Below, piece by piece: positions 12,442 to 35,735 of a DNA stretch of 45,000 bases. The DNA is taken from positions 1 to 45,000 of the forward strand of contig JAHBMJ010000465.1 in assembly GCA_018398765.1 (NCBI GenBank). The letters are read 5' to 3'. Position 1 is the first letter of the stretch, and each line of letters opens with the position of its first letter. Under the pieces are notes generated by a model. That model worked only from the letters and a program-made list of their open reading frames with translations. It did not search any database and had not been told where the DNA came from. Source of the DNA: Chromera velia (taxonomy: Eukaryota > Sar > Chromeraceae). Both the position numbers and the translations under genes were made by a program.

Positions 12442-13485
12442 TCAGTGCAAAGAGAAAACAGGCCGATTGCCTGCAGAAGTGGAGCTGATTCTCACTGATT
12501 CGACTGACTGGAGAACCACAAGAATGGATCTGAACATCGAGTTGGGAATTCTCTCCAGGAGCCGCCCGCTGTCTCTGCACTTGGAATTTTCGAACTTCAC
12601 AGAACACCTTTCCTCCTTGAAAGTCGCCTCCCGAAGCTCGTTGTAGCTGAACACGGACAGAGAAGCGAACACGCACAAAATCAGACAGCTTATAAGGAAG
12701 GAGACAGGCACAGCTCTCGCCTAAAGAAAGTCTGGCGACAAAGAATTGACTGAGGGTATGTGGAAGAGAATTTTGGTGCTGGTTTGACTACTTCATGGCC
12801 GCCCAATTCTTGCTTTCTATCTGTGTCGTATCTTTGTAAACGCAACCAGACAAACTGATACTCAGAAAATGAAGGCAGAAACCGGGAGAAACGAATACCC
12901 ACCTGTAGCTTCCCTCGGGCTTGCCGAGATCGGCATCTGTTGGCTTGGTGTTTCCGTAGTACCTCAACAGTCGATCTGCATTCACAAGCACAACGAATGA
13001 ACATGAGTATTTCTGGGACCGTCGAACGTGCACATAAATTTGGTGTTCCACTTGCTGGAGAAAAGTAGACAGTCGCGCAATCTGGACCAAGTTATCTCAT
13101 ACAGGCAAGATTTACGGGTACACCGTGCTGCATGTGCGTTCTCCTCTGACCGGCCCAACCAGAGACCACTGAACCCAGACACCCCTTGCCCGCAGTATCA
13201 ATGACTTCATTCACATGCACTGAAGAAAACCTATTCATCCACCCACCAGGATCGTCTGCGTCCATGATGAACCATCGACGTTTGTGCGGGCCGTCCCCGT
13301 GGGAGTCCCACTCGTTCTGCAGTCTGATGACGAACCCTCCCTTCTTTCCGAGCGCCCGTGCCTGTTCGAGGGTCGGCATGTTCTTGCCACTCACTTCCGG
13401 CAGGGGGCCCTCGGCTTTCGGCTTCCAGGCCTGCAGGGGCTTCGTCATCGAGGTCTTCGGTGCAGCGAGCCCTGGCCGAGCTTTC
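12442..13485 (-). other. exons 51-53: C-terminal region with alternative last exons
   Basis: Exon 51 (13485-13247) contains ALGKKGGFVIRLQNEW and KRRWFIMDADDP. Exon 52 (12975-12903) contains DRLLRYYGNTKPTDADLG. Two ends fit the phases. With donor GTGGGT at 12902 the last exon is 12854-12788 (22 codons, TAG); that intron is only 48 nt, and retaining it keeps the frame. With donor GTATTC at 12898 the last exon is 12720-12442, which has a strong TTTAG acceptor and encodes a hydrophobic helix (FLISCLILCVFASLSVF), then a Cys-containing segment and a TGA. The second looks more protein-like; the first has the commoner donor. No family is recognised. Confidence 0.55.
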
Positions 13486-16400
13486 CTACAGGGATCACAT
13501 TCATACATGCAGAGACCTGGTCATACAGGGATCACGTACAAAACCCAAGGTTTCCAGTTGCATTTCTCCATAGAGAAGGCAAGTGGAGCTCATTGATGCT
13601 GTTGGAGCGAATGGGTTGAGAGAATGAAACGGACTAGGAACACAACCAAACAAACGGACATAAAGAAAATGGCGGTCGTTAAAAGGCCCTGAAAAAACTT
13701 TTCTGCGTTCTGTGTGCCTTCGATTCTTTCAAATACCAGTGTCAATATTTTCCCCTCTGACCTCGGCGCTTTGTACTTCAACTCCGCAAACAGACGCGGG
13801 TACACGCCCCCGACTTGCAGCTTCACAGGCACAAGCTTCTCCGCCTCCGCCCCGCTGGGAGGCAGCTTGACCTTCCACTTGCGTGCTGTAGCTGCAGACG
13901 TTACTGCTGCCTTGTCCTTCTCCTTCCCTTCACCCACTCTGGATGCAGAGACGCGGGTCTCTCCGAAGAACACCTGCAGGAGGCGATCGAGAGAATAGAT
14001 AGAATCATCTTGAATTCTCATGAATTAAAGCAGAGAACAGACTCAAGTAAAATTGTAGAGTAAGTGTACCCAGTCCCGCATACATATAGAAGAATGCTGC
14101 GATGCACGTCTGTCTGAAGGAACCCGAAGTACGTCAAAGAATTGAACACAGACCAGAATCTTCTGCAGCAATGACCGAATCAATCACTCAACCAATGCAC
14201 AACTCCGCAAAAGAGACCGGAGGGAGACAGCCCCTTGCTTTTTCCCGAATGAATCAACTGTGGCTCATTTTCTGCTACGTGAAAGTGTCTGCTTGCTTAA
14301 TTCAAACCTGACTGACTGACATCCATGGTCGTTGCCGTCTCTGGAATGAGCGGGTGACTTGAGATCTGCACCTCCGTGCCGCCCTCTGCGGGTCCCTCCA
14401 AAGGCTGGATCTCCAGCTGCAAATCCCCAAAGAAAAAAAGGTAAAGGAAAAGCAGTCAGGAAGGAGTTCCTACCGTAGTAAATAGAGCGCTGCCTCCCCT
14501 TTCTTTGCCTTTCTGCTGAGCTTGGAGAGAGAGCAGTTTCAGGAAAAACAGTCGCACTGCGTACTGAGTCTTGAGTGAGAGTGCAACACAGAGGCAATCG
14601 AGAGTGCGAAATCAGCTGCTGACCTTTCTCCATTTGCACCTGTCCTCCGGTTTGCTCTCCTCCAATCGCTGGTGTTTGTCCAGGGCCGCTCTGTCGTTGA
14701 AGACCTTCTTGCACTCACACACCCTGTCCTTGCAGTCTTTCTTCAAGTGCGCCTCCATGTTCGACAGCTGCACGCTCTCCCCGCATCCGCACTTGACCTG
14801 TCTGTTCGGACACTCTGAGTCTTCGTGATGCTTCAGAGCCGAGAAGGGAAGAGACTGCTGGCAGGCCTTGCACGTCACAGACCGCTTCGGGCACACTTTC
14901 TGCATGTGCGTCTTGATCTCCTTGGAAGGAACGTCCGTGCCGCACTGGGTGCATTTCTCCTGCAGTCGAGTGAAATCAGTCGGTCGCGACAGAGCAAAAT
15001 CAAAGACGAACAATTGTAAATCTAAAGTGTTGGAAAGGAGGAAGAAAATAAAGGCTGATCGCCAAAGCAGCAGAGCAATGCAGCTCTACTTGGCTCAATG
15101 GATTGGTCCGTGATGGACTCCAAACCTTCTCCACCTTTTTGACTGACCTTTGCTGCAGGACAGGCACCGCTGCGGAGGTGTTCGTCCTTCTCGCTGGGCA
15201 TGCTGAAGCGCTCCCTGCAGACGCACACTCTGAGGGGGCAGTCCTTCTCCTGGTGTTGCTTCAGTTTTTGTACGACGGTCTTCAGACCGCACTCACACTC
15301 GGCAGCCCTCAGTGGACACAGAGTCTGCTTGTGCTTCTCCATCTCCGCCCTTTCCACTTCCTGAGGGAAGAGCAAGGCATTGCAAAGTGATGAATCTAGC
15401 TATCGGTTTCTTAGTCTCCATTTTGACTTGATCCTTCAAGCATCCATCTATTCAGTCTCCAAGTTTTCTGCTGCTCTCCGGGTCGCAAGGAAGGAAAAAA
15501 AGGGGGGGATGATTACATGCTGAAAGAGACCCCGGAAGACGAAGCCTCTCGACGTTTGAGCTCCTCCCCCATTTCCCTCTTCCTCCTAGCTCCCTTGTGC
15601 CCCCTGTATTCCTTCATCATATTGCCGAGCTGCCTGATCAACCAACTTCTTGGCTGACCATCTGGCAGCTGCACCGTTCCTTCCCCTTCGGGCACTCCTT
15701 TGCCTTGTGGTCCTTGATGGCCGCCTTTGCCATTCTCTTGCCGCACAGGTCGCAGGGGCCCTGTTTGCATGGAGGACAGGGGGGCGGAAGCGGACGTTTT
15801 CATTGGTATGGACAGGAAAAGAAGATTTACTGGCGAAGTCATGGAGCTGATATCATGTCTGAAAACAGATGAAGAGAAATACACATCAAAAAGCAAACGA
15901 AAGAAGAAATATTGGGAAGCTGAGTGACTGAGAAGCACTGGGATTCTACAGTACCTCCAAACTCAACGGCGCAGTTTTTTTTTCCACCACAAGCGATTGC
16001 ACCCCCTTTTAATTCTTTTCCCTTTTGTCCTTCTTCGGCCCGTCCATCCATCCTGAGCAGTATTCCCACTGTTTCCTTACGTGTCGGTGATTGCAGAGGC
16101 CGCTCTGTCGATGCTGCTCCAGGGCTTCTTTCGATGCCACCACAGCTCCGCACTCGCACACCCGGTTGGGGCAGTCTGCAGTCACTCGTTATTTGTTCAT
16201 TCATTCATTCATTCATTCATTCATTCATTCAGTCAGTCAGTCAGTCAGTCAGTCAGTCAGTCAGTCAATCAATCAATCAATCAATCAATCAGTAGGTAAG
16301 TCAGTCAACTATTCATTGGGTACGTCAGATAAATTGATTGGAACATCGATGCATTGATTTCAAACATTGTCCGAGATTTGTGAAGTGCAGAAAAGGACGC

Positions 16401-19400
16401 AACGTCCACGCATGCATTCACATTTCTCCGCCCATTCAGACAAGACACCTTCTCTCACTGCCTCAACAATTCACTCATGCAACACTCACTTACCTTTCGC
16501 CTGGTGTTTTCCGATTGAGCCTGCTGTGAAAGTCTTCCCACAGTCGCACTTGACTTGTTTCATCTCGCACTGAGTGGCCTGGTGGTGCTCCAGCACCTTC
16601 CTTGGCATCTCCTTTTTGCACACACACTTCACCTGCAAAGCCCAGCAAGGAAGCAGAGAGAGGAAACAATTGAATCGACATAAGAGCTGGGCTATTGTTC
16701 TTTTTCTCTAAGAGGCTCACATAGCTCACTCCAGATGCGCGACGGAACTTAAAAGGGCGCAAACCAAAGAGGAATATGTGGCACTGACTGACGGCAAATT
16801 AGTGAAAGAAACACTTGGAAAGGAGCTTGAGATCGGGGGACATAAAAAGACACAGACAGATCAGTCAGCATTCGCGGAAAAGACTTCTCCGCTTTCTCTC
16901 TTCGAGTGTCAACCTCTTTCGTTTTCCTGTTCATTTTCCCCCTCTAGTTGTGCATGTGCCTCGCTCCCTCCCTCCCTCTTTCTGTCTCTCCTCTTGTCTG
17001 AATGATCCACGCGGCATGCAGACCAACCATTGCTTGTGGACAGTGTTTCTCTGAGTGCTCCTTCATGTCCTTCAGCACGACGCTTGTGCCACAGGCCGTG
17101 CACGGGACCTGTGTGGAGGAAAAGGGAGGGAAGCTGGACGGCTACAGAAATGGGAGGCGCAAAAAAAAGACGAGAAACGCTTTCTTTTCCTTCCAAAGGG
17201 TGACAATGCAAAAAGGCACAGGCGGAGAGAGAGTGCATGAATGCAATTCCTTGCAAGGCTGCGCTGATGGACGGTGCAATGTGTTCATTCGATTCGATGA
17301 GCAGAAGAGACGCATTGAGGCATGGCAGGACTCTTTCCAGCAGAGCGACAAACATTAGCTGCACGTTTGACTCGATTGCCAACCACCAAACTTGTCAAGG
17401 AGAAGCCACAAAGACTGACTGAACCGTTCGTTGATTGATTGAAAAACTCGTGGATTGATTTATTGATTGATTCACTGCTGACACACTGACAGGGCGAAGT
17501 GGGCACACGCCGTCCACCAGATGCATCTCGAGCCTGCTCTTGTCCTCGAAGAACGCCAAACACTCGCAGACCCGGTTCGGGCACGCTGCACGTGACACCC
17601 AGGGAGGGCAAGTGGGGTGGGCGAGGAAGGGGTCAGTCTAGATTGGACATGAATGGCTGCATGTACGTTCTTTATGGAAATACCCTGAGTAGGTTTTGAT
17701 TCATGCGCAAGAAAGAAAAAGGGGATCTTGCACAAGCCCGACAGACCAACGGACCTTTCTTTTGGTGCATCTCGAGGCCTTTCTGGGGGACCTCCACACC
17801 GCAGTCGCACTTGGTGATTGTCAGGGGGCAGGCCTTCTTCAAGTGATCAGGGAGTTCCAGACGCTTCAGGGCAGCACCACAGTGACATTTGATCTGCACC
17901 CATTCGTTCAGGCATAGGGACGGGAGATTTTCTGAATTGAAATGCATTCACAGCGTCACTTGCGGAAGGTCAGGCACAGGACTGAAAAGATTGCGGCTTC
18001 TGAAATGTTTCACGCAGTCTCTTGTGTGTCAGAAAGGTTCACAATGTGTGCTCGTATCTCCTTCACGCTCGCATGGTTTCTCAAGAAAATCGCGTATTCG
18101 TGTTCCTGTTCAATCTCTCGCTTCTGCGTTCTGACCTCTGCTTGCGGGCACTCCTCCGCGATGTGCTTCTCGTTGTGACGTTGTTCTACGGTCCTTCCGC
18201 ATCTGGCACATTTGATCTGACAGAAGGAGCAAGAGAAAATGTGCAGGCAGGTTTATTATTCCAATCACAACAAAGTTCATCGAGGCAGACATGGATGGAG
18301 ACAAACGCTGGCACGGATTGCAAAGAAGGTTGAACGTTGACTTGACGTCACAGAACCGAGAGGAAACAAATTGCGCCTCCCTGTAGATGTATGCCGAGCC
18401 TCCGATGAGTTTCCTTCACACCAACCTACACGTTCATCTGTAGTGCACACTTCTGTTTCGCTCTGCAAGTCTTCTGACCATTCTGAAAGGGCAGGAGCCC
18501 TGCTTCTGGTGATGCAGGAGTGCGCTCTTGTCGTCGAAGTGGGCGCCGCACTTGCAGATCCGGTTCTTGCAACCTGCAGACAGCGCGTGTTTTCCTTTTT
18601 CAAATTGCCATATGAATACGTCTTTTGTTCTTCGACCAATCGTGCTTCAAGTTTAACGCGTGCAGTAATCTTTATGTGTAGGTATTGCGTCGTTTGGGTC
18701 TTCCAGTGTGCATAGGGGGGGACTTGTGGGAGTGAGAGCGAAAAAGAGGGGCAAAAGGAGGGCAGACAAGACTGAGAACCATTCAGATGAATGTTAACGG
18801 AGAAATGAAATTGGACAATCTGTCGTCCTGGATCACCGTCTCTCTTTGCCCACTCACTTACTCACTCACTCATCTGTCTATGCCCATTGAGCTCCCGTCT
18901 CCGCATTGCCTCCCCGCAGTCGCATGTCACTTCGGTCTCCGGACACTCGTCCGTCTTGTGCTGTGCCTCCTTCGAGCGTTGCACAGGGAAACCGCAGGTG
19001 GAACAGCTGACCTGCACACACACACACACACACACACACGGACCTTTTGACTTTCACAGAGAAGTTTCAGGTGAAAGAGCAGGCCCGTGCAGGGAGAAAG
19101 AAGACGACCAAGAGAACAAGGGACCACGGGAGGGCGGAGAACCGAGATAGGAGAAAGGCGTTCAAGGTGGAAGTGTTTCTGCGTGGTTCCGCTACCGCCA
19201 TCCATATAGTCTCGCTCACAATGTAATGCCGAGGGTAATAGAGAAACGGCCTGATGTCCCTACAGCTTCTCTAACTGCCTGCCTGGGTGAATGGCGAACT
19301 GACCACAGCGAGCGGACATAGGGTCTTTGCGTGTGAGTCCAGTTGTTCCACAGGGACCTTCTGCTGACACACGGGACAGCCGACCTGCAGGGAGACAGGA

Positions 19401-22400
19401 ATTACCGGCGGGTGTTTGTCTTCTCTCTGTCGTCTGCTGCTCTGCTGCAAAGCTGTGTGTCGGCACGATTCTCGCTTTTTCGTGCATAGGTTGAATGAGT
19501 CCCATACAGCCAGCCAGCGGAGAGAGAGAGGGGAGACCACCTGCCTGTCTTCTCAATCCAATAAGAACCGCTCGGAAGGTCACAAAGAAAAGCAGTATGG
19601 TCAATTTTAAGTATATAATCTGATGCCTTTCATTCCGCAGTTCCTCGGCGCAACGACAAAGAGAGCACCCTCCCCCATATTATCCAAGCAGTTTGGAGAC
19701 TTTGATTCCTTGTCTCGCAGATTTTCACTCCATTGTCAACTGAACGATTGACTAAGCGACTGTCAATCAGTCAAGTAGATACAGTTTGGGAATAAACAAC
19801 TGACGTATCGGAACGCACATGCCCCCTCCTGCTTCCTGTGGGCGGTGAGGGCCTTCTTATCCTCAAAGGCGTTGCCGCACTCGCACACACGGTTGGGACA
19901 CTCTGAAGGGAAGAGACAGGAGGCCGGGTAGAAGGAACAGATCCATAAAGTTGCACAGAAGGCAAACGGACGCAGAAGCCCTCTTCGAGCCGGGTTCTTT
20001 CAGTCGGCTGCAACTTCCGTTTTCTTCCTCTTTTTGTCTGCTGCTCTTGTAAGAGGCCCATGGGTTAAAACCGGCTCAAGCGTTAGAAAACTTCATTTCA
20101 AGAAAGAGATGGACATGCGAACCGTATTGACCTACAGGCTTCGATCACACATCTACACCCACCTCTCTACCCACTTACCGGTGACTCTGTGCTTTTGGAG
20201 GTCTCTGTGGGGAATCGGGTCGCACCCGCAGTCACAGGGGACGGGGCGGAGCGCACAGAAGACCCGCCTGTGGTTGTCCATCTCTCCCCTCAAAACTTTC
20301 TGACCGCACTCGCACGTCACCTGAAAGATTCATTCGTGCAGGCAAGGGGAAACTCCACAGGATCTGATAGCGCAAACGATGGAGAGATCAGTGAATAGAG
20401 GGAGTAACGGAAGAAAGAGTCTCCGCAGCGGCAGATAGAGAACAAAAAGCAAAAGAGTGGTGTGCACATTTCGGGCATGCGACGCACCTTCGTTTTCGGG
20501 CAGGACATGGCTTGATGCTCCTCCATGTCCTTTGCGACGACCTTGGCCTTGCACAGGGGGCAGGGGGTCTGCAGAAAGGGGCAACAAACAGGCGCGTGGT
20601 CTTAAAGGTTCAAAATGCAAAGGAAAGACAGAGGAAGAAGTCATGATCCCATCCAATTGGGGAATCGACCGAATTTCTGTTCTTTCTTTCCTGAAGCCTC
20701 CACAAATCATCTCGATGCAATCATTGTGGATGTGGTCTCTGATCTCGAAAAGTGGCAGGATGTCGGAATCTGAATCTACGTATGAAGAGCAATGCAACAC
20801 ACACGAGGAGGGTCTTTCCCAGATTTCTGACTCACCAGTTTGAGAGGACAGGTCTGCTTGTGAGCATCCAATGCCGCTTTGTCCGCCACAGCAGTGCCGC
20901 ACTTACAGACGCGATTTTTGCAGTCTGCATCGAGTTGGAACGGAACGGAAAGGCACAGAACGTGCATAGGGACGAGAAGAAGAGACAACAACAGATGCCA
21001 AATAACATGTAGGGGTGGCACGAGAGCTCAGAGCATCAGGAAAGCGGGTGGACCAGAAAAAAAAGCACAAAAAGTGGAAAGAAGACGCAGAAGGGAATGG
21101 GAAAAGTGCACCTGTCTGTCTCTCTCCTTTAAAACTGAATGTCCTCTTCCTGCTTTGCTGTACATACACCCAGAGTCATCCGTGTACACTAGCCGACCCT
21201 ACTTGACTGACGCACGCACCTGTCTTTTGGTGCAGTCCGAGATCTTTGAAGGCCAACTGCTCTCCGCAATCGCACCTGACAAAGAGGGACCGTATGCAGA
21301 CAGACGTCAATCACCAGGCAGCCGCTCTGTCAGAACAAGAAAACGCTGGATAAGGTTGAGGGACAGAGAATGTGATGTCAGGAAGCGAAGAAAGATGCAA
21401 GCGCTATGCTTAGGCCAGGTAGCCTTTCTCTGATTTTTCAATATAAGTGTGGTTTCCATATGCTCAACCATACAATCCTGCCTGCCTTTGTCTACCCTTT
21501 TTGCTGACTTTGTTGTCCGGTGTGCACAGTCTCTCTCCTTGTGGGTCTTTAGAGAGTCCTGAGGCACTGCAATGCCACAGAGGTCGCACGGCACCTGCAA
21601 AAGGACAGATAAGGGGGGATGGGGGGAGAATAGCAGAAAAGGGGAATGTCAGATTGGTGGATTGGCACAAAAATGAATAGATTCATCGAAATCTAGGTGC
21701 CAGTAGGAAGCAAATATGTCAACTTCGTCTTTGATTGTTTCACCACCCGTAAGCAGACTGACCTTTCGCTTTCCGCAGACCGTGCTTTTGTGTGCCTCCA
21801 TTTCCTTAAGTGCCACGCGGGCGGCACAAAGATCGCAAGAGGCCTGCATGAGAAGAGACAGAAGAATGACTTGATTTTGAGCATGTCTCAGAAAAGTTTT
21901 TGATCGGGGTCAGTAGAAGAAGAATGGAATTTCACACAAACGTCTTTGACAGAGACACGCACGTCAACGAACGAACCAAGAAGGCAAATTCAACTCGTGC
22001 AAATTCTCTGTCTCGCACAACACTTGGGGAAGGTCGTCAGTGTGTGGAATGTCGTCCCTCTGCATGTGAAATTGAAGAAATCGAAAAAAGACAAATATAA
22101 GTGAACACTGACAAATCGAAGGAGACAGGTCCCATCGTTCTGGTGTGCCAGAAGTTTCTTCCTGTCTGCGCAAGCCGCTCCGCACTCGCACACACGGTGC
22201 CGACATGCTGCGCACAGACAAGAAAGGATTGATTCCAGGACGGAATTTTTAGAAAATTCTGGTTCAGTGGTCATCCTCTTGATATATACCCATTCTTGAG
22301 CTTCCGGCAAATTATAGACTGGCAATCCCTCATCAAGTTCAGGAAATGTGCGCGATCCTTGAAAGTCGAATCACTGTGTTTTCTTTCCCTCCATTCTTTG

Positions 22401-25400
22401 ACCCTCCAAGTTGCAGCCTGCCCTCCCTTACGCGCACCCACCTGTGTTTCTGTGCACCGCCAAACTTTTCTGAAGCGTCTGCACCCCACAGTCACACCTG
22501 ACAACCCGAAGGGGACAGTCCGACTCCCTGTGCTCGTCCATTTTCGATCTCTGTACAAGCTGTCCGCATTCACAGGGAATCTGCATGCAGAAACAGAGAA
22601 ACAACAAAGCGTGCAAAACAGAGAGAGAATTAAGCAATTCTAATGGCATTAGACCTGACGGACCCTCTCCCCGTCCCTTCCTTCTGCCCTCCTTTCCGGC
22701 TTCCCTTCTCACCTGTGCGTTTGGACACTCCTGGTTGATGTGCGTCTCGTGGTCTCTCAGCAGAACCTTCCTCCCACAGTTTGTGCAGGGAACCTGAAGG
22801 CAGAAAAGGAAAGAACAACGAGGCACTGGATGCACTGACAGGAGAAAAGCACTGTGTATGGCACTTGAGCGTACCTCAACATCAACAGGGACGAAGGAAG
22901 GGAATATATCCACCCGTCCATGCAAACACCAACTTGATTGATTGAAATCGTAGATGGATTCCTCTGTTTTCAGCCGTCCAGGAAGACTAGGAGAAACATC
23001 ACGGCAAGAAACAAGTCGAAAGAAACGAGTGGTGAAGCAAGCAACAAAGAGACTCAGCCTTTCTTCCTCCTGGGTCGGGACCCCTCAATCTGGAATCAGA
23101 GCGCTGTGCCAACTTCATGCTGTACATATGGTTGGAAAGATTGACCGACCCTCCTGAGGGGACAAGACCCTTCTCCCTGATGCAACGCCAGCCCGCTTCT
23201 GTCAGTTGCAACAAAGCCGCACACGCACACGCGGCTCTTGCATGCTGCACAAACAGAGGGGGAGACCAATCATCAATCCAAACAAATGCCTGATCGGCAC
23301 ACAAAGAGAGAAATCAATCCATGAAAGGGACGTGGGAGCTGAGAGTGCAAGTGTTGATCTGCCCCTGTCTCAGCTCTTCTTTGATTCTACACCTTTTCCC
23401 CTTGGAGTGGAATGTGAGGTTCTAAACCCCTTTGCATGTGTGTGTTTGTATGCATCAGCGTATTCATACACGTGTGCTGGGTAGGTAATTTTGTCTCTGC
23501 TCCGTGGGCAAGACCAACCTGTACGGAGGTGGAGATTCAGGTTGCCCATGCGCACGCTCTCCCCGCACTCGCATGTCACCACCCTCTCCGAACACTCCGA
23601 CTTCTTGTGCTTTGCGAGACCCTCACGAGGAATCAGGCGGCTGCAGCTGCACTCTAACTGCAGTGCACCACAGTCGGGGTACGTCGGGGTACAGACAGGA
23701 GGAAGAATGGGTGGACTGACGCAAAAAAAGAGTCCTTGACAAAGAAAGACATCAATCTCCAAGAGAAGAAATACAGGGATAGCAAGATGCAACCAGAATC
23801 AGCCCGCTTAGCCCCACTACTGAAAAAATACACGCTCCAATGCCCTTCAAACTTTAACGAACCATCCATCCGTCCACCCTACCTCATCAATCCATCCAAC
23901 CAACCCACCAGAGTTTGGGGGCACTCATCCGCCTTGTGCTTGTCGTGGAGGCCTCTCGGTACTCTCTTCCCGCACTGACCACAGGGGACCTGCGTGCGTG
24001 CATGAGTGAATGATGGTCAAAAGCTGCCGCGGGGGTGAGCAAAGCTTGATACCCCAGCTGTTTGACGTCTTTCCTCCTACATATGCTGCTTAGGTCATTT
24101 TACATTTCGGACCTTTGAAAGAAGAACTTTCACATCCGCCGAAGCCCCCCCCTTTAGCCCTGTTTTGCCTTCTGTATTTTTTCTGACCCCCTGGCGCGAA
24201 TACTTTTCAGGAGCCGTCATGTTGTTTCAAAGAAAACGGGCAGTCTTTGAAGAGCAGAAGAGTGACTGACGGCTTTCAGGGGGCAGAGCCCGCTGGTCAA
24301 ATGCTCCTGAAGCTCCTTAACTCCCGTGAACCCGGCACCGCAAGCGCAGACTCTCTCTGGGCAAACTGCAGGAAGTTCAAGCAGGTTAAGACAGGCAGGC
24401 AGACGCAAATACAAGTCCAGGGATGCATTTGAATGCTGAAGGCGGTCGATGGACAACAGGCGGAACAGAGGCAGAGACGTGCGTAAACTCCGATAAAGCC
24501 AAATGCGACAGCTAGTCTTTTTCACTCACGTCTGGTCAAATGCGTGCCCACAGCCACGGACGCCACCTCTGCACCGCAATCACAGGGCACGGTTCTGAAA
24601 GGGCACTCTCTGTTTCTGTGGTCCTCTAGGTCCTCGTGCTTCACTACCTCACCGCACGCACAGGGGACCTGCAGACAGCAGACAGATAGTGAGCGCACAA
24701 AAAACAGGAGTAGTCGGACTTTAAGGTGAGTCGAATGAAGAGTCAGTCTCTCTAGCTGCCCATGGGTGGAAGAGCGCGGGGAGGGAGGTGAAGGAATCTC
24801 TCTAGCTGCCTAAGGATGGAGGAGCGCTGGCCGGGAGGTGAGGGACCTACCAGGCGAAGTCTGCATTCAGATGCCTTATGGCTCTGCATCTGCCGTCTCG
24901 GCAAGACCACCCCGCAGCTGCACGGGTCCTCCCGCATCCCGCAGGCGCTCTCAAGGTGCCCTGCCAGCTCCCTTCTGAAGAGCCGAACGCCACACACGCA
25001 CTCGACCTGCAGTTCACGCAGCATTCATAGTCCACGTGAATGTCGAAATGATCAACAGAGAAACAAGCATGCCCGTGTCACACAGCTGGCATAGATGTCC
25101 TACAAACGCATGTTATTTTGGACTGCTGGCGTCCATGTGCTGCGTAGACATGAGTCCCCATAGGAAACAGAAAACTCTGCATCCTGGAGCTGAGCCCGAC
25201 GGACCTGTGCTGCGGGACATTCTGTCTCGCTGTGGGCCTCCATGTCTTTTCGGACAATCATGACTCCACAGGCACACACAGTGTGAGCAATCAGACACTC
25301 GGTCGCCTGGTGAGCTGGCAGAGCGGCCTTCTTCATCACCTCCCCGCACTCGCACACAGCCTGAAAGGGGAGGGAGCAAGGGAGAGCAAGGAAATGTGAA

Positions 25401-28400
25401 AAGGGCAAAACACACCGGATCTATGGACATGTCTCACTATGTGCGGTCCTCTCCCCCCATTGATTGCCGCAATTGTTTTCTTGGCTGTGCCTCCGGCAGT
25501 CTCTTCGCCTGGACGTCTGTCAACCTGTCTGCCCGTCCCTTTGTCTGTGGTCAAGTTAGCTCGCACTGGCTCTCAAGTGCTTTGTCAGCCAGTCTCTTTT
25601 CTCGTCATCTTTTGCTTCTGTTCTTTCTTACCGCGGGTCAGACTCCTCAAAATAATCATTTTTTAATGCGAGCTCGGTATTATAAGAAGAAGTTTATTCT
25701 CATAACAGAATGATTTCTGTCTCTAATGTCAGGCACTTGAAGAAACTGACACTGCCAAGTGTGCACTCGGTGACTGCGTGCTCGGTCATTCGGTCTCGCC
25801 TCACAAGAACTCCGCAGTCGCATGGGATCTGCAAAGGAATTTTGATATTATCAGTAGAGGGGCATTTCTTTGATATTGGAGACTCTTGGGTCTCTTATTT
25901 AACTCTTTTTTTGACCTGGGAAGGGATTGAGGCCGTACAAGTTGATGCAAAAAAAACTGCGATGAAAAGAAAGGATCCTCGTCTTTCTTCCCTTTTTACG
26001 AAAGATCAGACTGGGAGCTGAAAGCACGCTCTGCAAAAAGCCGAAGAGAGATGGATCGAGAAAGAGGGAGAGAGATCCAAAGCGTACGGATTGGCAAGTA
26101 TGTGTGTTTCTGTGTGTATGTCCGTCAGCATGAAAATGAATGTGTGCATAGACAAGTCATTGTGCATATGCGTGTTTTGGTTCAGGTTTGAAGCTTCCGA
26201 GAAAGGGGGTGTAGATCTATCTGTTGGCCTTCACGACGCTCGTCCGTAGACAGCGGTCAGAAGAGCAAAGACAAAGCAAAGATTTTCCTGACCTTCACTG
26301 CTGGGCAGTCCTTTGCCCTGTGTTCTGCCGCAGTTCTCCTCTCGAGTTCACGACCGCATTCGCATCGGATCTGCAGGCGGGCAGGCAGCAAAGCAGCAAA
26401 CCAAAAGATTCCCGAACGCATCTCACACATTTAGTCTCCCATCCCCAAATCAATCATCAAATCCCACTTCAGGGATCACAAACGGGAAACAAAGAGAATG
26501 CTGGCAGCCATTTTTCTCTACATTTCCCAGTAAAATAAAGCCTTCCTTTTATATGCTATCTCTCCAAGAGACAGACCTTCTCGACAGGACATTCCGCCAG
26601 GCGGTGCTGCTGATGGGCCTCCCTGGTCATGTCTTGTCCGCACGCGCAGGTCACGTTTTCCTTTGGACACACAGTGCTCTTGTGAGTGTCCACATCCCGC
26701 CGTTGCATTCGGGCGCCGCACCCGTTGGGACATTCCACGCCGGCAGCTGTACATTCGCGTTCCTTGTGTGCGGCCATCTGTCTTCTCTCCTTTGCCTCTC
26801 CACAATCGCAGAAGACCAGACTGAGGGGACAGTCAGTCTCCCTGTGAGCCTCCAGATGACGCCTTTGCAGTCTCTTCCCGCATACACAGACAATAGGAGC
26901 ACGAGGACAAGACTCCTCCCTGTGGGCCAACAACTCAGCCCTCTCCATCCATCGCCCACAGGAGCACTCAACCTGACAAGAGAATACCAGATGAACAGAA
27001 GATGCAGTCAAAGAAGGACAAAAATCAAAAACCGCAGACAATGCCTTTACTTCTCTCCCATCTCACTCTGTCGCCTTCTCCATCTGCCTATGTGCCTTCA
27101 TACCTGTCGGCACGTTTCTGTCTGTCCGTTTGTCCATTTGTTTTTCTTGTTTCTCTGTCTGAGTGTTTTTGAGTCCATCTGCCTGTCGGTCGGTCTGTTT
27201 GTCTGTCCGTTGGTTTGTAAGTCTGTCTGGTTGTCTGTGTCTCCATCCTTTTACCTACCTCGAATACGGGACATTCAGTCAGGCGATGCGCTCTGATGTC
27301 CATCCTCGGAACTTTCTGTCCGCACTCGCACGTCACGTCTGTCATCGGACACCCCTCCCGCACATGAGCACCCAGATCCCGACGTCGCACCACAGCAAAG
27401 CACCCACACGTGACTGGGGCCTCTGGACATTCCTCCTCTTTGTGTGCAAGGAGATGGGCTCTCTTCGGCCTCGCACCGCACTCGCACTCCACCTCCTGCA
27501 CAGGGCATTCCCTGCGCACGTGCCTGCCGAGGCTCTCGTGGGTCAAGAGACTTCCACAACCGCGCGGACAGCGAACCTCTCTCTGCACCACCAGAAAGGA
27601 AAAGGAGAGTTACTTACGGGATGAAGAACCATGTCCCCAAAGAACGAATACACAATGAGAAACGAATTGAGGAGACAGAATTAGTCATTAACAACACACC
27701 AAGCAGAATTATTTGAACGCCGTTGCAGCAATAGACCTGTTTTGAGCCCAATGAAGCGTATGGAATGAGCTCTAGCTCCAAAACGACAAAACCAAATGCA
27801 TTCAAAGAGCGGCCATGCACCCAAATATTTCTTTCTACCTGAGGACAGGACGACGCTGCGTGGGCCTCCAGGGTCCCCCTTGCCACCAGTTCCCCGCACT
27901 TCTCGCACAAGTCCCTCTTCACAGGACACGACATGCGCCAGTGACGCCCCCTGTCTCCTCTCTTCAGTTGGGTCCCGCACTCACACGTCACCTGAAAGCA
28001 ACGTTACCATAAAAAGGAAAGATATCAATTACACAATGCCCTCCTGATGCCATCCCTCTCGATGCTCTATGCCCTCTCAATACAGAAAATACGTGCCAAG
28101 CATGGCGAAGACATCAGCGAACATGAGCATGATCTGCACGGCTCTTCGTAGAGACTGACCGTCATGGCAGCACACGTCTCCATTTTGTGCCTCTTGAGGT
28201 CTCCCCTCTCGAATGACTCGCCGCACTGCTCACACTTGATGACCTGGCAGCTGCAGTCGCTCTTTTTATGCTCCTCCATCGACCCCCTTGGAATCGCTTC
28301 CCCGCACTCACACGTGTCCCTCGACAACGAACACCTCTCTGCCAGATGGAGAGCCAAATTCCCTCTGGAGACGCCCTGCTTGCATCTCCTGCAGTGCGTC

Positions 28401-31400
28401 GAAGCGACGAGACATGAAGCTCGAGAGTGTAGTCGCAGGACAGTGGCAGACCTGCAAGCAAACATTCAGGAAAGCGGAAATGAATGAACGGTTTGGTCTG
28501 ATTTCATCAATTGGCATGCAAGAAAAGTTCCTGACGCAAAAACAAAACCCATTGAAGAAAAACAATTTTTCAACCAAAGAAACAGTCTGTTTCCTTTTAC
28601 CTCCGGATGACGACACCAAAGAAAGGCCTCAACAAATTCGACACCAACTCCCCCTCCCCCGCCCCATTCGCCCCACCCAACACAGAGTCTCTCTCGCATA
28701 CGAAAAGAAGGAGAACCCACATTTGCCTTCCACAACCAGAGGGGCAGTCGACCACCCGCAGTTCGCACTCCACTTCTTGGTGTCGCTCGAAAGCCGGTGT
28801 GTAGATCTGAACACGTACGGACACCAGAGATTGAAACCAGTGAAAGAAGAGAGAAGGGACAGAGAGCAAGCCATTTGGACACAGGAGTGCATGTAGACTG
28901 GCAGGATGAAAGAGATCAAAACCAAAGCAAGCAGAGACGGTGTAACTATTTCAAAACAGAAGGGGGGCCATTCGTCAAATCACCCTCTCCTGAAATCACC
29001 CGCTCACACTTTCGCTGCTTCTAATATGCGTAGCATGATTCCCTCAGGAAAGGGAGAAGTGGAAGGAATGTGGACTGTGGAGGCGTACATCAAAATCAAC
29101 AAACAAGACAACGCAACTGTAAACAACGCACCGCTCTTCCACATGCGCACATTGTCCTGTCCATATCGCAGTCGAAGGTCTTGTGGCTCTCCAGGGAGGC
29201 AGGACGTTCGAACCGCTCTCCGCAGTCGCACACTCGTCGGAAGCAGGCTGCTGTTTTTTCAGGCAATCAGGCATTGCGGTAAACATGTGCAGGGATCACC
29301 TTTTCAGTCAAATTGATCAGCAGAACGCAGTGTCCTTCTTCCATTCAGTTTCTTCGTTCTGTTCCTCTCTGACGCGTCCATTTTTTCCCTCATGCCTCAG
29401 TCCCTCTCTTTCAAGCTCTCCACTGGCCCCTCTTTCTTAAGCGGGAGGGACTTTTCTTTTGGATTTCTTCATTGACTTGATGAACCATCTAACCGACCAA
29501 TAGACTGTCAAACTCACTCACTCACTCACTCACTCACTCACTCACCTGCTCACTCACTCACTCACTCACTCATTCACTGACTGTGTTTCCGATGTCCCTC
29601 CAATTCGGCCCTCATCACCCAGGCGCCACACTCGCACGGCACCTCCGACAGCACGCACTCCTCCTCCCTGTGCCTCACCACGTCCGCACGTCTCACAAGG
29701 GCACCGCACTCACAGCGAACCTGGCCGAGGGCACACTCCGTCTGCTTGTGCGCAGAGAGGGCGGGCAGATCCCTGAACGCCCTTCTACACGCACACACTC
29801 GGTGAGCGCAACCCGTCAGTCTGTGCACATCCAGCTGTCGTTTCGGCACCTGTCTGCCACAGTCGCAGCTGACCTGCAACCATCAAGGCACAGAGCAGCA
29901 CATCACGTCTTGCTTCGAATGCCCAGATTTTGATCAGACCAATAACTGCATGGTTCCGCCTACACATATCAACTGAAAAGCGGTATCTGTCGTGGCAGTA
30001 GATGCCTGCAAATCAAAACGGCCACAGAAAAGTAAGGACACCCAAAAGAGGAATAAACAAGCATACCGACCATTTCTTCCCTGTCTCTGTATTTGCCCCC
30101 CCCCTCTTCACACCCTCCACAGAGAGCCTCCAAAGCCCATGCGGAGAGACCCCACCCAGCCCCCTCCTCTCCCGAGAGGAACGTCAACTCATCAGACAAG
30201 GACCATCCGTGCCCCCACCCCTCTCCGTCAGATCCAGCCAGAGCTTTCGTCAAATGCCCACAAATGCCGCACTCTCCCAGATAACCCCCCTTCCCCCTTC
30301 CGCTCTTTCCAGCATGACCATGGGGCCCCGAGGAGGTGCCTGCATTATCTAGTGCCTCGATCCAGTCGTCTATTCTGCTGATGAGGAAGCTTCTTGCAAG
30401 TGCCGCACTTGCACTCGACCCGGACCCAAAATTTCCCCCTGCTGCCTTCATCTTTCTTACCGCATCTTCGAGGAGGGCTGCTCGTTGCCGATTCTGACGG
30501 CTCTCTGCCTCCCACCGCCGTCTACGGTTTTCCAAACACGCAGACAACCGTCCGCAGATAAGACGAAATCGCTCTGCGCGAACTTCCGCCGTTCGGGCAC
30601 TTCGAATGGTCTCTGCAAGTGCGATGGGACCTCTGTCTTCTTGACTGGATGGAGCGCCCCTTGTGACCTCCGAGAGGTCACCAGAGGCCGACCCCAGTGC
30701 AGATGTGACAGCACTGGCCACCCCAGGGGGGAGCGGCAGACCCCATTTGGTTCTCTCATTCTGTGTCAGGGTGAGAGAGAAGGAGATCCTCAAGTCTTGA
30801 GTCTCCACAAAGTTCGAAGCAACCGACAGATGTCGCTGTGATGCGATTGCCGTCTCTCCCCCTATGTTGCTCGACCTTCTCTTTCCCCCAGCGCACCAGT
30901 CGGCGAAGGCTTCCACAAAAGGAGCGTACAGAACGAACCCGTTCATCGCCTTTGGCACGGAAACCAGGAGGGACTGCAAGCCTCAGGAGAAAGCGAGAAA
31001 CAGATTCCGACATATGCACACACATACACAGAGAGAGAGGCGGGGGGGGGAGGAAGGGAGGGAAGGAGTGAAGGAGACCAAAACCAGAGAAACGGTCGTA
31101 CGCAAACATTGCGGGAAAGAACGCTATGAAGGCCTCATATTTTTCAGGCTACCTCTCTCACTCCCAAACTAAGCATGGCCATGTGCATCCGCCGCCTTTC
31201 TGCTGACTTTCATTTCGACCTGCTTTCGCACTGTCATGGAGGCAGCACTGAAGCCTGTGATTTTAGCTGGGTCAAAGACATTAAAGTTCAACGTATGCAA
31301 GCAGGTGCTTGGGATTTTGATAAAAAGCAAAGTGACTGACTTACATCCATCTGTGCGTCCGGTACTTTCATTTCGTCTGCAAACGCCTTGACAATGGACG

Positions 31401-32198
31401 CAAACACCTCCTCTTTCACTTTACCTGCCTCTCCTCCTTTCTCTTCGAGTGCCTTGAAGGCTTCCATGATTGCCCTCCGTTCTGAAGCCAGTGAGCTTGA
31501 TGACGCTTTCTGTTTTTCATCAGCATTCGTCTCCACAGAAGGGAGAGGAGACGACGAGGCTCTCACAGAGGCCCTTCTCATCGCGTCACCTGCGCGTTGT
31601 TTCTTTCTCTTTGTCTCGTCTTGCCTCTTTTTGGCTTCCTTTTCCCCCGCCCCTTTGTCCTTTTGTCTTTCATCATTGTCTGCCGTGAGCCTCACTCGAG
31701 CCATCGCCCCATTTCCCTTCGCCCCCCTCAATGCTGCTCCGCTGGTCTCGCGGGCAGGTGTGTCGCAGAGAGCTGCCATCAAGCTGTCCACCTTGACGGA
31801 TGCAAAAGGATCAGAACCTCCTTTGGGAGCGTGTCCCCTGATGCGCCCCTCCAGCCTCCGACTTGCGACCGCAGCCTGCAGAGTGTATGCAAATGAGTAA
31901 GTGTGAGTCTCTCTTTCTCTCTCTCTGCGTGTGTGTGTGAGAGAGAGAGAGAGAGAACGAGGAGGGGGGGAGCGGGGGGAGGAAGAGAGATGGAGGCCGA
32001 GAAAGAGAAACGGACAGACAGAGGGACAGCGAAAGAGAAGGGAGAGAAGAAGAAAAGAAAAGAAGAGATGCAAAAAGAATCGATCGATGGATGAACCCTC
32101 CATCAAAGTCCTCCATGCTACTTCACGAACAACCGTCCGGGGCTTTCTTCGTGAAGGAAAGAAAGAAAGAAGCAAACGAACAAACAAACAACCAAACA

Positions 32199-32230
<32 letters not shown>

Positions 32231-33107
32231 AGGGGGAGGATTTCAGAGAAATAAGCCTCCAGACTCATGTCTCTGAAAGAACACTTTTGGACTCCATGAC
32301 TCGTGATGACTCTTTCAGATTTTGGCAGACGAAGTTTTCTTTCTGCATTTCTTTTTGAAGTCTCCAAGACGGGCTTGGTGATCCCAAGTTGACCGACAAA
32401 AGAGAAGAAAGAAGGAAGAAAAAACGCACCCGAACGATGACCATCCGACAGAGCCCTGCCATCCTTTCAGAGACCAGATAGAGGGGACATGCTGCAAGTG
32501 TCATCTTTTTCAAGTCCAGCTCCCTCTGCAGCAAGAGAGCATTGAACAAAGACCAAGTGAGACAAACTGAGAGAGATTTAGAAGATGGACTCGAACGAAG
32601 AAGATTAAGGAACTTTGTTCTCAAACCTTTATTTCGAGTGCCCAAGAAAACTAGATGCTAGCACCATTTTGTGGTTGCGATCCCGTTCACGCAATTCCCT
32701 TCTTTTGATCTGTCGGCTCCTTTTCACCCTTTGTTTGAGAGACCGATTTGAATGTGGGAGCGTTACAGTAGGTGTTATGGAACGATAGCGGAGTACATTT
32801 TGAAGAATTACAGAGCAGACTGAATCTAAACCAAGACAGAAACCATCATTCTCCCTGCCTCTTTGTCAGCCAGTCTGTCTTACTTCCCGTGGGCCGTACC
32901 TACTTATCTGAGTCACAAGCGGCTTTTGTTGCTGTCTACTTCATTTGAACTGAGAAATTCTTTCTTTCTTTCTTTCTTTCTTTGAAACAATCCTTTTCGA
33001 TCCATTTTGTCGACTAACATTGTTCAGTATTTGTTTGGTCATCAGAAGAGAATCTGCAAGAAGATGCAACAAACGAAAACTTTTGATCCGATACGTCGTT
33101 TGAAATG

Positions 33108-33141
<34 letters not shown>

Positions 33142-35735
33142 TACATACAAGCACAAATACACATGAACATGAGTGAACTGTCTGCTTTCGCATTCATTCA
33201 TTCATTCATTCATTCATTCATTCATTCATTCATTCATTCATTCGTCTAGCCAGCCGTTCAGCCATCACTTTAGAATGCCCACCAACCCGTCCAACGTTGA
33301 AAGAGCCAAGTTGGTCACACAAACAGGCAAAGCCCACCAAAAAACCCAAAAGAACCACAACAACGAATCAATCAATACCACACTCAGACAGTCAGTCAGT
33401 CACTCAGACAGTCAGTCAGTCACTGAAGCCGGCAGGCAGCCGGAAAACTAAACAGCCAGGCAATGCGTCAAACTCCTTCCAGTGAATCTGCTACCAACAA
33501 AAAAAAGAAACACCCACCCAGTCTCAAAAGTCTCTGCACGTGAGTCACCGCGTCGATCAAAACAGGGCCCCACTCCCCCGCTGCCCCCCCCCCTCCCCCC
33601 TGGCGCCTCTGACTCTGACTCTGCCTCTGCGTCTGAGACTTCCGCTGCCCCCCCTCTCCATGAGCACACGCAAGCAGCTGAGCATGTCCCGCCGCAAAGA
33701 GGTCCTTCAAGAGCTGCTCTCTCTCACATCGGAACACAGAAAGGGCACTCGATAATTTGTCGCCGAGAATGTGAATGGGTATCACATAGAAGACGAATGG
33801 GTGGGCAAGAAGCGACAACAGCCGTGAGTCCATTTTGATCTCCACACCCATCTCTCCGGCTCTTTTGCGTACTCGAGAAACTCGTACGCGATAGAAGTTG
33901 CGGCACAATGGCGTCTGAGAATGTTCATGCCTGTCTACTTGCGTAGTATCATCCTACTCGCTCTTGAAGGATGAATCTGAATACAAAGAGAAGAGGTTTT
34001 CTGTCCTTTTCCATTTTGCCTCGTTTTCGTTAGTCCTTCTCAAGTCTTGACTCTTCCTTTCCGAGAGAAATCCGCAGATCATGTGTGAATCTTGCTCCAG
34101 CGAAGATGCATGTTGACTAACTCACCCACCATGTTTTCCGTTTTCAGTTGAAGCGAACTCTCGTCCATCGCCACGGAGTGACGCTCCAGGGCTCGCACCT
34201 GCATTTATTTATTTGCATTTCCATGTGCAGGGAGGGTGGGGAGAGGGATGTTAAAAGAAAATCCGATAGATACAACGGGCAGACACCCGATCTTTGGGCC
34301 CGAAAGAAACGCGAAAGAAAAACGCAAAGCATTCGACCAGAATTCAGACGTTCGAGTGTCGAGTGCGCGAAAAGAGAATCACGGCCCGTGCACCAACAGT
34401 AGCCATGGCGCATGCTGAAAGTCAAGAAGTCATGTATAGACCCTTCTTCGTCGAGCATCGGAAGTAATAAAACAACCCCGTCTTCGTTCTTCGTCGGGGA
34501 CACCCCCGTTCCCCCCCTTCAAACTGACCACATCCTTCAGGACTTCCAGCTCGTCCTTCATTAACAGAATCTGAACGATTATGTGAACACACATAGAGAT
34601 GCACACACATGCCACTCATATGCATGTTCACACAGATTGAGATATGTGCCTTCAAAACCGTCAGACTGAGTGGGACTACACAACAAGGCTAGAATTCAAA
34701 AGACATTCTTCGCAACGAATTGTCCCCTCTTTTCATCCTGCTTCTCGTCCGTCGTACCGGATTCCATTCCTTTCCAATCTTCCGCTCTCCTCTTCCCGTT
34801 TCTTTTGGAGCCTCGCATTGGAAAGCCTGAACACGGAATCTGCAATCAGGTGCTTCCAACCGCTTCCAACCGCTTTTCGCGTTGGTTCTTGAAAAACTGA
34901 AATACGGATGAGAAGGTACGAATACGCTTTGAGACGACAGCCCCCCCCTCTTCTCCCCTTACCTCATCGTCTAGAGCCTGTCGGAGCGCCCCCACAACTT
35001 CTGTGGAGGCATCGACTTCCGAGAAGTTCCTCTTTTGACCGAATTGCAGAAGGAAAGCGGAGCGCTGCCTCTGGACCTCGGCACCCAATTCGAGAGACCC
35101 ATGCACAACAGCGCCTCCACCCAGGACCTCGTCATTCGTGTCCCCTCCACTCGCATTCCATCTCTGCATGCACACACACATACAGATGCAGACTCTCTCT
35201 CTCTCTCACACACACGTACACACACACACATACACACGCGCGCGCGCGAACGCATGCATGCACGCACGTGTACACGCATGCATGCATGCAAACAGAGAGA
35301 GAGAGAGACGGGTTACATCCCATCACAACAGTTTGCTTGCCCTACACATTTCTATTCAGGCAAAGACCATCGGTGCAGCACTACAGAGTGGCAGAAGTAC
35401 GGACGCGTCATGAGTATGTAGTGCAATGTTCTCACAACCCATGGGTCCAAACACCGTGCTCGGATACGTAAATGCATGCGCTCTTGAATACACATATATG
35501 CGAGAGTTGACGTTTCGACTGCATGTGGAAAGGAAATTGCGCGAGGGATGCATCCTTCAGCACTGACCGAGGGTCTCTGGGTGAAGTCGGACCTCACACA
35601 CCCCTCCTTCCCGAATCCGGAGACAGCCCCCGAAGGGGAAGAAGGGAGCTGGTGCTGCACGGAACTCCTGCCTCCATGGGTCTTATGCGAGAGCTCCCCC
35701 AACCAGTGCTCGAGTCGCTGGTGCCTCCCCAACAT
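12442..35735 (-). CDS. giant TRAF-type zinc-finger array protein with IPT/TIG domain (about 53 exons)
   Basis: ATG at 35735-35733, with an in-frame TGA 13 codons upstream. Exons joined by GT-AG introns keep phase throughout; with stop 12790-12788 the coding sum is 8,418 nt (2,805 aa), and with the TM-bearing last exon about 2,877 aa. Order: N-terminal region of about 835 aa (exons 1-10); about 65 modules of the form CxCG or CxxCG, then about 10 residues, L-x-x-H and C, as in TRAF-type zinc fingers (exons 11-48); an IPT/TIG domain (exons 49-50); a C-terminal region (exons 51-53). TRAF-type fingers bind zinc and usually mediate protein contacts; no catalytic or RING domain is visible, so a scaffold or receptor-proximal role is inference. 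Because the array runs over many small exons, automated annotation probably splits it. Weakest points are the exon 8/9 junction and the 3' end, which has three alternatives. Confidence 0.8.
13590..13762 (-). other. read-through of intron 50: possible tail anchor
   Basis: If the donor after KYKAPR is not used, the exon 50 frame stays open to a TGA at 13592-13590. It then encodes a linker and a strong hydrophobic helix (LLTTAIFFMSVCLVVFLV), followed by a short polar tail. That would give a tail-anchored protein ending just after the IPT/TIG domain. A helix of this quality is not expected from a random intron, so an alternative transcript, or a true gene end here, is plausible. Confidence 0.45.
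13762..14416 (-). other. exons 49-50: IPT/TIG domain of the zinc-finger giant
   Basis: Exon 14416-14321 gives the start of an IPT/TIG fold, EIQPLEGPAEGGTEVQI, matching the family signature I-x-P-x-x-G-P-x-x-G-G-T-x-V-x-I. Exon 13973-13762 continues with VFFGETRVSA, then a low-complexity Lys/Ala loop, then KWKVKLPPSG, VPVKLQVGG and FAELKYKAP, which correspond to the later strands and the closing F-x-Y. IPT/TIG domains are immunoglobulin-like and occur in transcription factors, plexins and many protist surface proteins. Its place directly after the finger array is unusual. The insertion between strands makes it longer than a standard domain of about 85 aa. Confidence 0.75.
16197..16291. repeat. 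compound tetranucleotide array (ATTC)n-(AGTC)n-(AATC)n
   Basis: Lies in the intron between exons 44 and 45 of the zinc-finger giant. Three different four-base units follow one another with single-base changes between them. Confidence 0.9.
19016..19039. repeat. (CA)n microsatellite
   Basis: Starts just upstream (on the minus strand) of the acceptor of cassette exon 19011-18870, where it replaces the usual pyrimidine tract with a TG repeat. Confidence 0.9.
24745..24844. repeat. 50-bp tandem duplication in an intron
   Basis: CTCTCTAGCTGCC occurs at 24748 and again at 24798, and the flanking sequence (GGAGCGC, GGGAGGTGA) is also copied with mismatches. It lies immediately inside the intron after exon 25006-24851. 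Confidence 0.75.
24851..29873 (-). other. exons 11-21: N-terminal part of the TRAF-type finger array
   Basis: Exons: 29873-29582, 29250-29132, 28806-28721, 28451-28160, 27991-27839, 27582-27259, 26972-26577, 26370-26293, 25828-25751, 25360-25205 and 25006-24851. They hold about 27 modules. Typical units are VSCDCGRQVPKRQLDVH, VRCECGALVRRADVVRH and VECSCGRWMERAELLAH. Three modules have the longer spacing CPxGCG (in 28806-28721, 27582-27259 and 26972-26577). Exon 17 carries five modules without an intron. Exon sizes here (78, 156, 324, 396 nt) are multiples of one 78-nt, 26-aa module, unlike the cassette arrangement that follows. The exon 29873-29582 starts straight after the N-terminal region. 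Confidence 0.85.
29513..29575. repeat. (CTCA)n array
   Basis: Begins about 7 bp inside the intron downstream (minus strand) of exon 29873-29582, so the donor is nearly in contact with the repeat. Confidence 0.9.
31913..31957. repeat. CT/GT/GA dinucleotide tract
   Basis: CTCTCT, then GTGTGT, then GAGAGA in the intron upstream (minus strand) of exon 31875-31341; provides its pyrimidine tract. Confidence 0.8.
32200..32231. repeat. (GAAA)n array
   Basis: Intronic, between exons 32525-32430 and 31875-31341 of the zinc-finger giant; preceded by imperfect GAAA/CAAA units from about 32155. Confidence 0.85.
32959..32983. repeat. (TTTC)n array
   Basis: Intronic microsatellite downstream (minus strand) of the tiny exon 33053-33019. 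Confidence 0.85.
33109..33138. repeat. (CA)n microsatellite
   Basis: Intronic, about 55 bp upstream (minus strand) of exon 33053-33019. Confidence 0.9.
33191..33243. repeat. (ATTC)n array
   Basis: Thirteen or so perfect ATTC units inside an intron of the zinc-finger giant; the same unit recurs at 16197 and 37112. Confidence 0.9.
35164..35317. repeat. CA/CT/GA and CATG-rich low-complexity tract
   Basis: Intron 1 of the zinc-finger giant is largely CACACA, CTCTCT, CGCGCG, GCATGCAT and GAGAGA runs. It explains the spurious His/Thr- and Cys/Val-rich ORFs on both strands. Confidence 0.8.

Follow-up and report, generated by a model that had tools for sequence, protein, structure and literature searches.

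A continuous array of TRAF-type zinc fingers

Does a long series of small zinc-finger exons in Chromera velia, a free-living photosynthetic alga, encode a single giant protein, and what would such a protein do? The question is raised by a stretch of 45,000 nucleotides (positions 1 to 45,000 of contig JAHBMJ010000465.1, assembly GCA_018398765.1; the whole stretch is called the window here), in which a first-pass annotation had placed, at 12442-35735, about 65 TRAF-type modules in about 38 exons of a single phase-consistent frame. Our analysis confirmed an array of 66 contiguous TRAF-type fingers in one open frame under predicted splicing, carried by 38 finger exons, so that the proposed counts were close to exact.

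Within 12442-35735 the finger pattern C-x(1-3)-C-x(10-12)-H-x(3-6)-C gave 105 overlapping matches on the minus strand and 6 on the plus strand, and ten shuffles of the same DNA gave 0-3. With overlapping matches excluded, the unspliced DNA had 61 on the minus strand and 8 on the plus strand, against some 0.8 for each shuffled strand. When the 38 predicted finger exons (29873-14624, minus strand) were joined in silico, one open frame resulted. The spliced model, in which hand-curated exons replaced the doubtful small exons of the automatic gene model, comprises these exons and 2 exons of a probable TIG domain; its 1,843 amino acids (aa) are interrupted by 0 stops, which upholds the single frame that had been proposed. 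The acceptors are CAG (40/40), the donors GT (40/40), and the introns 132-464 bases long. The usual donor consensus is GTRAG, unlike that of the array introns: within 29873-13762 the donors lean to GTC, with 18 of the 40 reading GTCAG and 22 starting with GTC.

The pattern fits 65 of the 66 C-C-H-C fingers; finger 66, whose H-to-C insert is longer than the pattern permits, was assigned by eye. Neighboring fingers are separated by linkers of 6 residues (53/65) or 4 residues (12/65), and the shorter linkers stand before fingers 2 and 5, and then before fingers 30, 34, 38 and every fourth one to 66. The Pfam zf-TRAF profile (PF02176) matched with 284.3 bits against a curated cut-off of 27, in 29 stretches, and this profile search bore out the TRAF-type identity of the fingers.

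The public gene model lacks nearly half of the fingers

The gene is not unknown: it is already public, but the public record is incomplete. The record is a 2,030-aa "TRAF-type domain-containing protein" of Chromera velia CCMP2878, found in UniRef/EukProt at an expectation value (E) of 0 and called P0003 here. Stretches of P0003 match the window exactly, showing that it is the same gene; however, of the 38 finger exons it uses only 18 in frame (one of them truncated), reads 3 in another frame and skips 17. It therefore holds 35 pattern fingers whole and the variant last one, 36 altogether, and 30 of the 66 are missing. A composite of the corrected array with the public ends is 2,647 aa long. 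Provided that the public ends are correct, the proposed length of about 2,800 aa comes down to roughly 2,650.

The exons read in another frame yield no fingers, which indicates a prediction error in the public model. We compared the 30 fingers without a counterpart in that model with chance matches to the pattern. Among the 24 that have an 11-residue loop, a glycine follows the second cysteine in 19 (chance matches, 1/28), and hydrophobic residues occupy loop position 4 in 23 (chance matches, 13/28) and loop position 9 in 20 (chance matches, 12/28). The pattern demands neither the glycine nor the hydrophobic residues. A chance pattern is ruled out for the array by the strand asymmetry, the shuffles and these core residues outside the pattern definition. 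An automatic gene model can thus drop nearly half of the domains when repeats span many small exons, and public counts of similar arrays may consequently be too low.

The exons are listed below in the order of translation, with the strand in parentheses. Public-model exons were placed by exact match to P0003 residues (the ends of 35568..35735 are good to about 1 codon); finger exons 1-38 follow the curated splicing and finger assignment, and the cassette labels c2-c8 come from the cassette comparison described in the next section.

35568..35735 (-), predicted first coding exon (MLGRHQ...), P0003 1-56
34963..35163 (-), N-terminal exon of the public model, P0003 57-123
34529..34570 (-), N-terminal exon of the public model, P0003 124-137
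32430..32525 (-), N-terminal exon of the public model, P0003 138-169
31345..31875 (-), N-terminal exon, charged, with basic stretch KKRQDETKRKKQR, P0003 170-346; no Pfam match above cut-off
30071..30973 (-), N-terminal exon of about 300 aa, end CGIC...CGGC...REEM, P0003 347-647
29582..29873 (-), finger exon 1, fingers 1-4 (4 split), in frame in P0003
29132..29247 (-), finger exon 2, end of 4, 5, start of 6, skipped in P0003
28721..28806 (-), finger exon 3, end of 6, start of 7, skipped in P0003
28160..28451 (-), finger exon 4, end of 7, 8-10, other frame in P0003
27839..27991 (-), finger exon 5, 11-12, present in P0003
27259..27582 (-), finger exon 6, 13-16, truncated in P0003
26577..26972 (-), finger exon 7, 17-21, present in P0003; zf-TRAF 66 bits; modeled with AlphaFold2 (confidence score 79, see below)
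26293..26370 (-), finger exon 8, 22, present in P0003
25751..25828 (-), finger exon 9, 23, skipped in P0003
25205..25360 (-), finger exon 10, 24-25, present in P0003
24851..25006 (-), finger exon 11, 26-27, present in P0003
24530..24668 (-), finger exon 12, 28, start of 29, present in P0003
24271..24365 (-), finger exon 13, end of 29, 30, present in P0003
23909..23989 (-), finger exon 14, 31 (c2 a), skipped in P0003
23519..23657 (-), finger exon 15, 32, start of 33 (c2 b), present in P0003
23150..23244 (-), finger exon 16, end of 33, 34 (c2 c), present in P0003
22713..22793 (-), finger exon 17, 35 (c3 a), skipped in P0003
22442..22580 (-), finger exon 18, 36, start of 37 (c3 b), present in P0003
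22113..22207 (-), finger exon 19, end of 37, 38 (c3 c), skipped in P0003
21763..21843 (-), finger exon 20, 39 (c4), skipped in P0003
21509..21594 (-), finger exon 21, 40 (c4), other frame in P0003
21220..21275 (-), finger exon 22, start of 41 (c4), skipped in P0003
20836..20924 (-), finger exon 23, end of 41, 42 (c4), skipped in P0003
20488..20568 (-), finger exon 24, 43 (c5 a), present in P0003
20179..20320 (-), finger exon 25, 44, start of 45 (c5 b), present in P0003
19805..19902 (-), finger exon 26, end of 45, 46 (c5 c), skipped in P0003
19304..19384 (-), finger exon 27, 47 (c6 a), skipped in P0003
18870..19011 (-), finger exon 28, 48, start of 49 (c6 b), other frame in P0003
18479..18573 (-), finger exon 29, end of 49, 50 (c6 c), skipped in P0003
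18136..18216 (-), finger exon 30, 51 (c7 a), skipped in P0003
17755..17893 (-), finger exon 31, 52, start of 53 (c7 b), present in P0003
17491..17585 (-), finger exon 32, end of 53, 54 (c7 c), present in P0003
17028..17108 (-), finger exon 33, 55 (c8 a), skipped in P0003
16494..16632 (-), finger exon 34, 56, start of 57 (c8 b), skipped in P0003
16081..16175 (-), finger exon 35, end of 57, 58 (c8 c), skipped in P0003
15659..15760 (-), finger exon 36, 59, start of 60, skipped in P0003
15148..15360 (-), finger exon 37, end of 60, 61-62, present in P0003
14624..14959 (-), finger exon 38, 63-66, intronless tetrad with long H-to-C insert in the last finger, present in P0003
14321..14416 (-), C-terminal exon, probable IPT/TIG part 1; TIG E 0.013-0.032, below cut-off
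13762..13973 (-), C-terminal exon, probable IPT/TIG part 2; TIG E 0.013-0.032, below cut-off
13248..13484 (-), C-terminal exon of the public model, P0003 1875-1953
12905..12976 (-), C-terminal exon of the public model, P0003 1954-1977
12511..12648 (-), C-terminal exon, P0003 1978-2023; read-through to 12442 (open reading frame, ORF, 12442-12720) meets an in-frame stop
12061..12082 (-), last exon of the public model, uncertain, from the automatic model; HHPPGSK is the end of P0003

Cassette structure and age of the array

From finger 27 onward the array is built of ten 4-finger cassettes, leaving 26 further fingers outside them. Six cassettes consist of three exons each, of 81, 139 or 142, and 95 or 98 bases, with phases 0-0, 0-1 and 1-0; exon a holds one finger, exon b a complete finger plus the larger part of the next, and exon c the end of that finger and the fourth. 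One further cassette (c4) has four exons, and the last tetrad (63-66) is a single exon. Two intron positions cover 32 of the 37 inner junctions of the finger array, and at 12 of the 37 the junction falls inside a finger, which is complete only once spliced. Both the frame and the finger spacing are continuous through all 37 inner junctions, and on this ground a set of several separate genes was rejected, although isoforms that skip exons may exist.

The seven cassettes compared are 32-47% identical, and their introns are unrelated except for two intron pairs with short matches (at most 30 bases, E 0.01). These values rule out a recent tandem duplication or an assembly artefact; the duplications look old, and the array appears from its sequence to have been kept intact.

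Predicted fold of the fingers

Finger exon 7 (fingers 17-21) was modeled by AlphaFold2 with a predicted local distance difference test score (pLDDT) of 79 and a predicted template modeling score of 0.55. Its best Foldseek and VIA matches were TRAF6 and TRAF4, and the model has the beta-hairpin and helix found in those proteins; the predicted fold for the fingers of this one exon is thus TRAF4/TRAF6-like. Alignments A1 and A2, which were poor or had out-of-frame rows, were kept out of the structure modeling. For a second exon the alignment used (A4) added almost nothing beyond P0003, and the resulting model is close to a single-sequence prediction because only P0003 aligned usefully.

Relatives and known systems

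Relatives were sought by protein searches with the spliced finger region and with a 1,056-aa query, both restricted by word matching and protein length (the length window of the latter excludes the longer P0003), so that longer arrays may exist elsewhere. The spliced finger region found ten proteins at E 0.001 or better, namely P0003 and nine proteins with ankyrin plus zf-TRAF, and the 1,056-aa query added two more of the latter kind, one from a chrysophyte. These eleven ankyrin plus zf-TRAF proteins (P0001, P0002, P0004-P0012), one of them from Pythium brassicae, carry 9-31 pattern-matched fingers with a longest run of 13, and the first-pass rule that TRAF-type fingers come in groups of two to seven is therefore too narrow. 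Like the array protein they are long and rich in zf-TRAF fingers, with mostly 6-residue linkers in the seven examined; unlike it, they have ankyrin repeats and fingers in broken runs. Ankyrin profiles matched P0004 and P0009 strongly but gave no match in P0003 or the protein segments tested.

TRAF proteins have few fingers beside a RING and a MATH domain. The fingers of TRAF4 and TRAF6 (PDB 2eod, 2yuc, 3hcs, 5vo0) resemble those of the array in being C-C-H-C and beta-beta-alpha (2yuc matched by sequence at E 2.4e-7), and one finger pair superposes closely; in contrast to TRAFs, the array has 66 fingers, and neither RING nor MATH was found in the parts tested, in agreement with the first-pass reading. 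We place the array protein outside the TRAF proteins, as an extreme member of a finger family already known. CEP104 (PDB 5lpi) likewise has C2HC fingers, with a Foldseek E of 0.011, and is described in PMC5222566 as having four fingers at variable spacing that form a globule beside a TOG domain. The array differs from it in its 66 fingers, its fixed 6/4 linkers and the lack of a TOG match in P0003 or the protein segments tested.

Genome-wide searches, which cover the 178-Mb assembly, gave 77 zf-TRAF matches, the window included, and the other loci matching a 209-aa array piece were 28-34% identical. Ten zf-TRAF ORFs were scanned (L011-L022); nine matched zf-TRAF, and six also matched RING at E 0.001, three of them above the curated cut-off. 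A second, shorter finger-rich gene lies at L016:3707-4699, where a 331-aa ORF has six zf-TRAF stretches and no RING match. At L011:4655-6310 there is a zf-TRAF match in the genome search, yet the ORF scan recovered no Pfam family. Among the papers listed by our literature searches, none concerned this protein or extended arrays of TRAF-type fingers.

Regions flanking the array

Searched at E up to 1, the predicted 647-aa N-terminus matched no Pfam family, and thus no RING; RING was likewise without a match at that level in P0003. Against PDB sequences, the N-terminus gave a single match (E 0.94). A CGIC...CGGC pair just ahead of the array, at about 30090-30280 in the P0003 reading, is a possible extra zinc site. 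At the other end, the Ig-like C-terminus of the first-pass annotation is weakly supported: the IPT/TIG profile matched over positions 5-72 of 84 at E 0.013, with 16.0 bits that remain below the cut-off of 20.9. Searched by sequence against solved structures this region had no match, and the array locus was not among the matches of a genome-wide TIG search. MATH gave no match in a profile search of the C-terminal segments (the genome-wide MATH search had no responding control and proves nothing). By eye, 13248-13484 and 12905-12976 look like the first strands of a PH domain (KRRWF...LLRYY). A C-terminal PH-like domain was rejected, as there was no PH profile match and no PH structure by sequence; the array locus was also not among the matches of a genome-wide, exon-by-exon PH search.

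Possible function of the array protein

We propose that one minus-strand gene encodes all 66 fingers and that its product is a stiff, zinc-pinned rod, likely an intracellular multivalent scaffold, a reading to which we give an even chance and which is in line with the giant adaptor or rod considered at first pass. In TRAF6, which PMC5222566 contrasts with CEP104, the fingers stand in line, their rotation probably being set by the fixed spacing. By analogy with TRAF6, the strictly fixed spacing of the array predicts a rod rather than a compact ball. The spacing would keep a constant rotation between fingers, and the shorter linker at every fourth finger might set a regular twist or kink. Variable finger surfaces could bind partner proteins along the rod, and an anchoring or dimerizing role may fall to the charged part of the N-terminus and to the probable IPT/TIG domain; as judged from sequence, a conserved core with a variable surface would suit a multivalent protein scaffold. 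The rod length can be roughly estimated to be of the order of 100-200 nm. More tentatively, and with rather less confidence than in a rod-like scaffold as such, we suggest a molecular rod or ruler in which ten 4-finger cassettes and 26 further fingers take a regular twist from the short linker; such an array would exceed every uninterrupted TRAF-finger run in the relatives identified here and would put a signaling finger to new use as a repeated structural unit. Should a single protein contain all 66 fingers, a finger of immune signaling has been reused as a building block of long rods, as ankyrin and spectrin repeats are, and the strict spacing with its four-finger period makes for a clear structural prediction.

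Several results weigh against the rod-like scaffold. The model of exon 7 has weak parts in the third finger and in the linker behind it, Foldseek superposes the five fingers poorly (template modeling score 0.46, root-mean-square deviation 8.7), the tight VIA alignments are limited to the first two fingers with middling Z, and the second modeled exon is poor (pLDDT 66); the rod geometry is thus extrapolated. The CEP104 zinc-finger profile (PF21039) also passes its cut-off (38.0 against 27.4 bits, E 2e-9, five stretches), and the fingers of CEP104 pack as a globule, not a rod. Furthermore, no domain of known function is attached to the array.

Two alternatives appear unlikely to us. One is an adaptor that binds ubiquitin chains and acts in signaling, partnering separate RING plus TRAF-finger proteins in place of a RING of its own. 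ORFs matching both RING and zf-TRAF do occur in the genome, as described above, but the protein parts tested have no RING, the UBZ matches were all below Pfam cut-offs, and a zf-TRAF finger alone does not imply ubiquitin binding. The other, of similarly low probability, is that the locus gives several products, either by alternative splicing of cassettes in frame or from at least two genes. The public annotation was made by Augustus with RNA sequencing as intron evidence (section 17 of PMC4501334), and even with these hints the model skips the 17 finger exons; the 81-base cassette exons are of phase 0-0, so that skipping them preserves the frame, and such frame-keeping skips could be real isoforms, which would also count against one protein with 66 fingers. 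A search for transcript-like fragments with a 316-aa query over the skipped exons, whose 383 candidate short proteins included none at E 0.001, counts the same way. However, the three frame-shifted exons point to prediction error, the fingers missing from the public model share core residues with the retained ones, and the array contains no gap larger than its introns of 132-464 bases.

It is very improbable that the protein is a metallothionein-like metal store or buffer with zinc content as its purpose: there are 201 Cys and 90 His among the 1,843 residues of the spliced model, and one ion per finger would amount to about 66 zinc ions, but a buffer needs neither a conserved hydrophobic core nor strict linker lengths, and a term search of the main text of a paper on the mercury response of Chromera velia (PMC6920818) found neither TRAF nor metallothionein, which is weak evidence. 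An extracellular or cell-surface rod, one of the first-pass suggestions, has an equally slight chance; surface proteins do include Cys-rich repeat rods and IPT/TIG domains, but reducing compartments are the typical setting of C-C-H-C fingers, inspection by eye, made without a predictor, revealed no signal peptide in the public N-terminus, whose start codon is likewise a prediction, and there is no transmembrane-like stretch, as mean hydropathy stays at or below 1.48 in every 19-residue stretch of the composite.

Elsewhere in the window

A minus-strand ORF at 43286-43759 has membrane-like stretches by eye and no Pfam match, and positions 636-1343 hold 6.5 copies of a 108-base tandem repeat.

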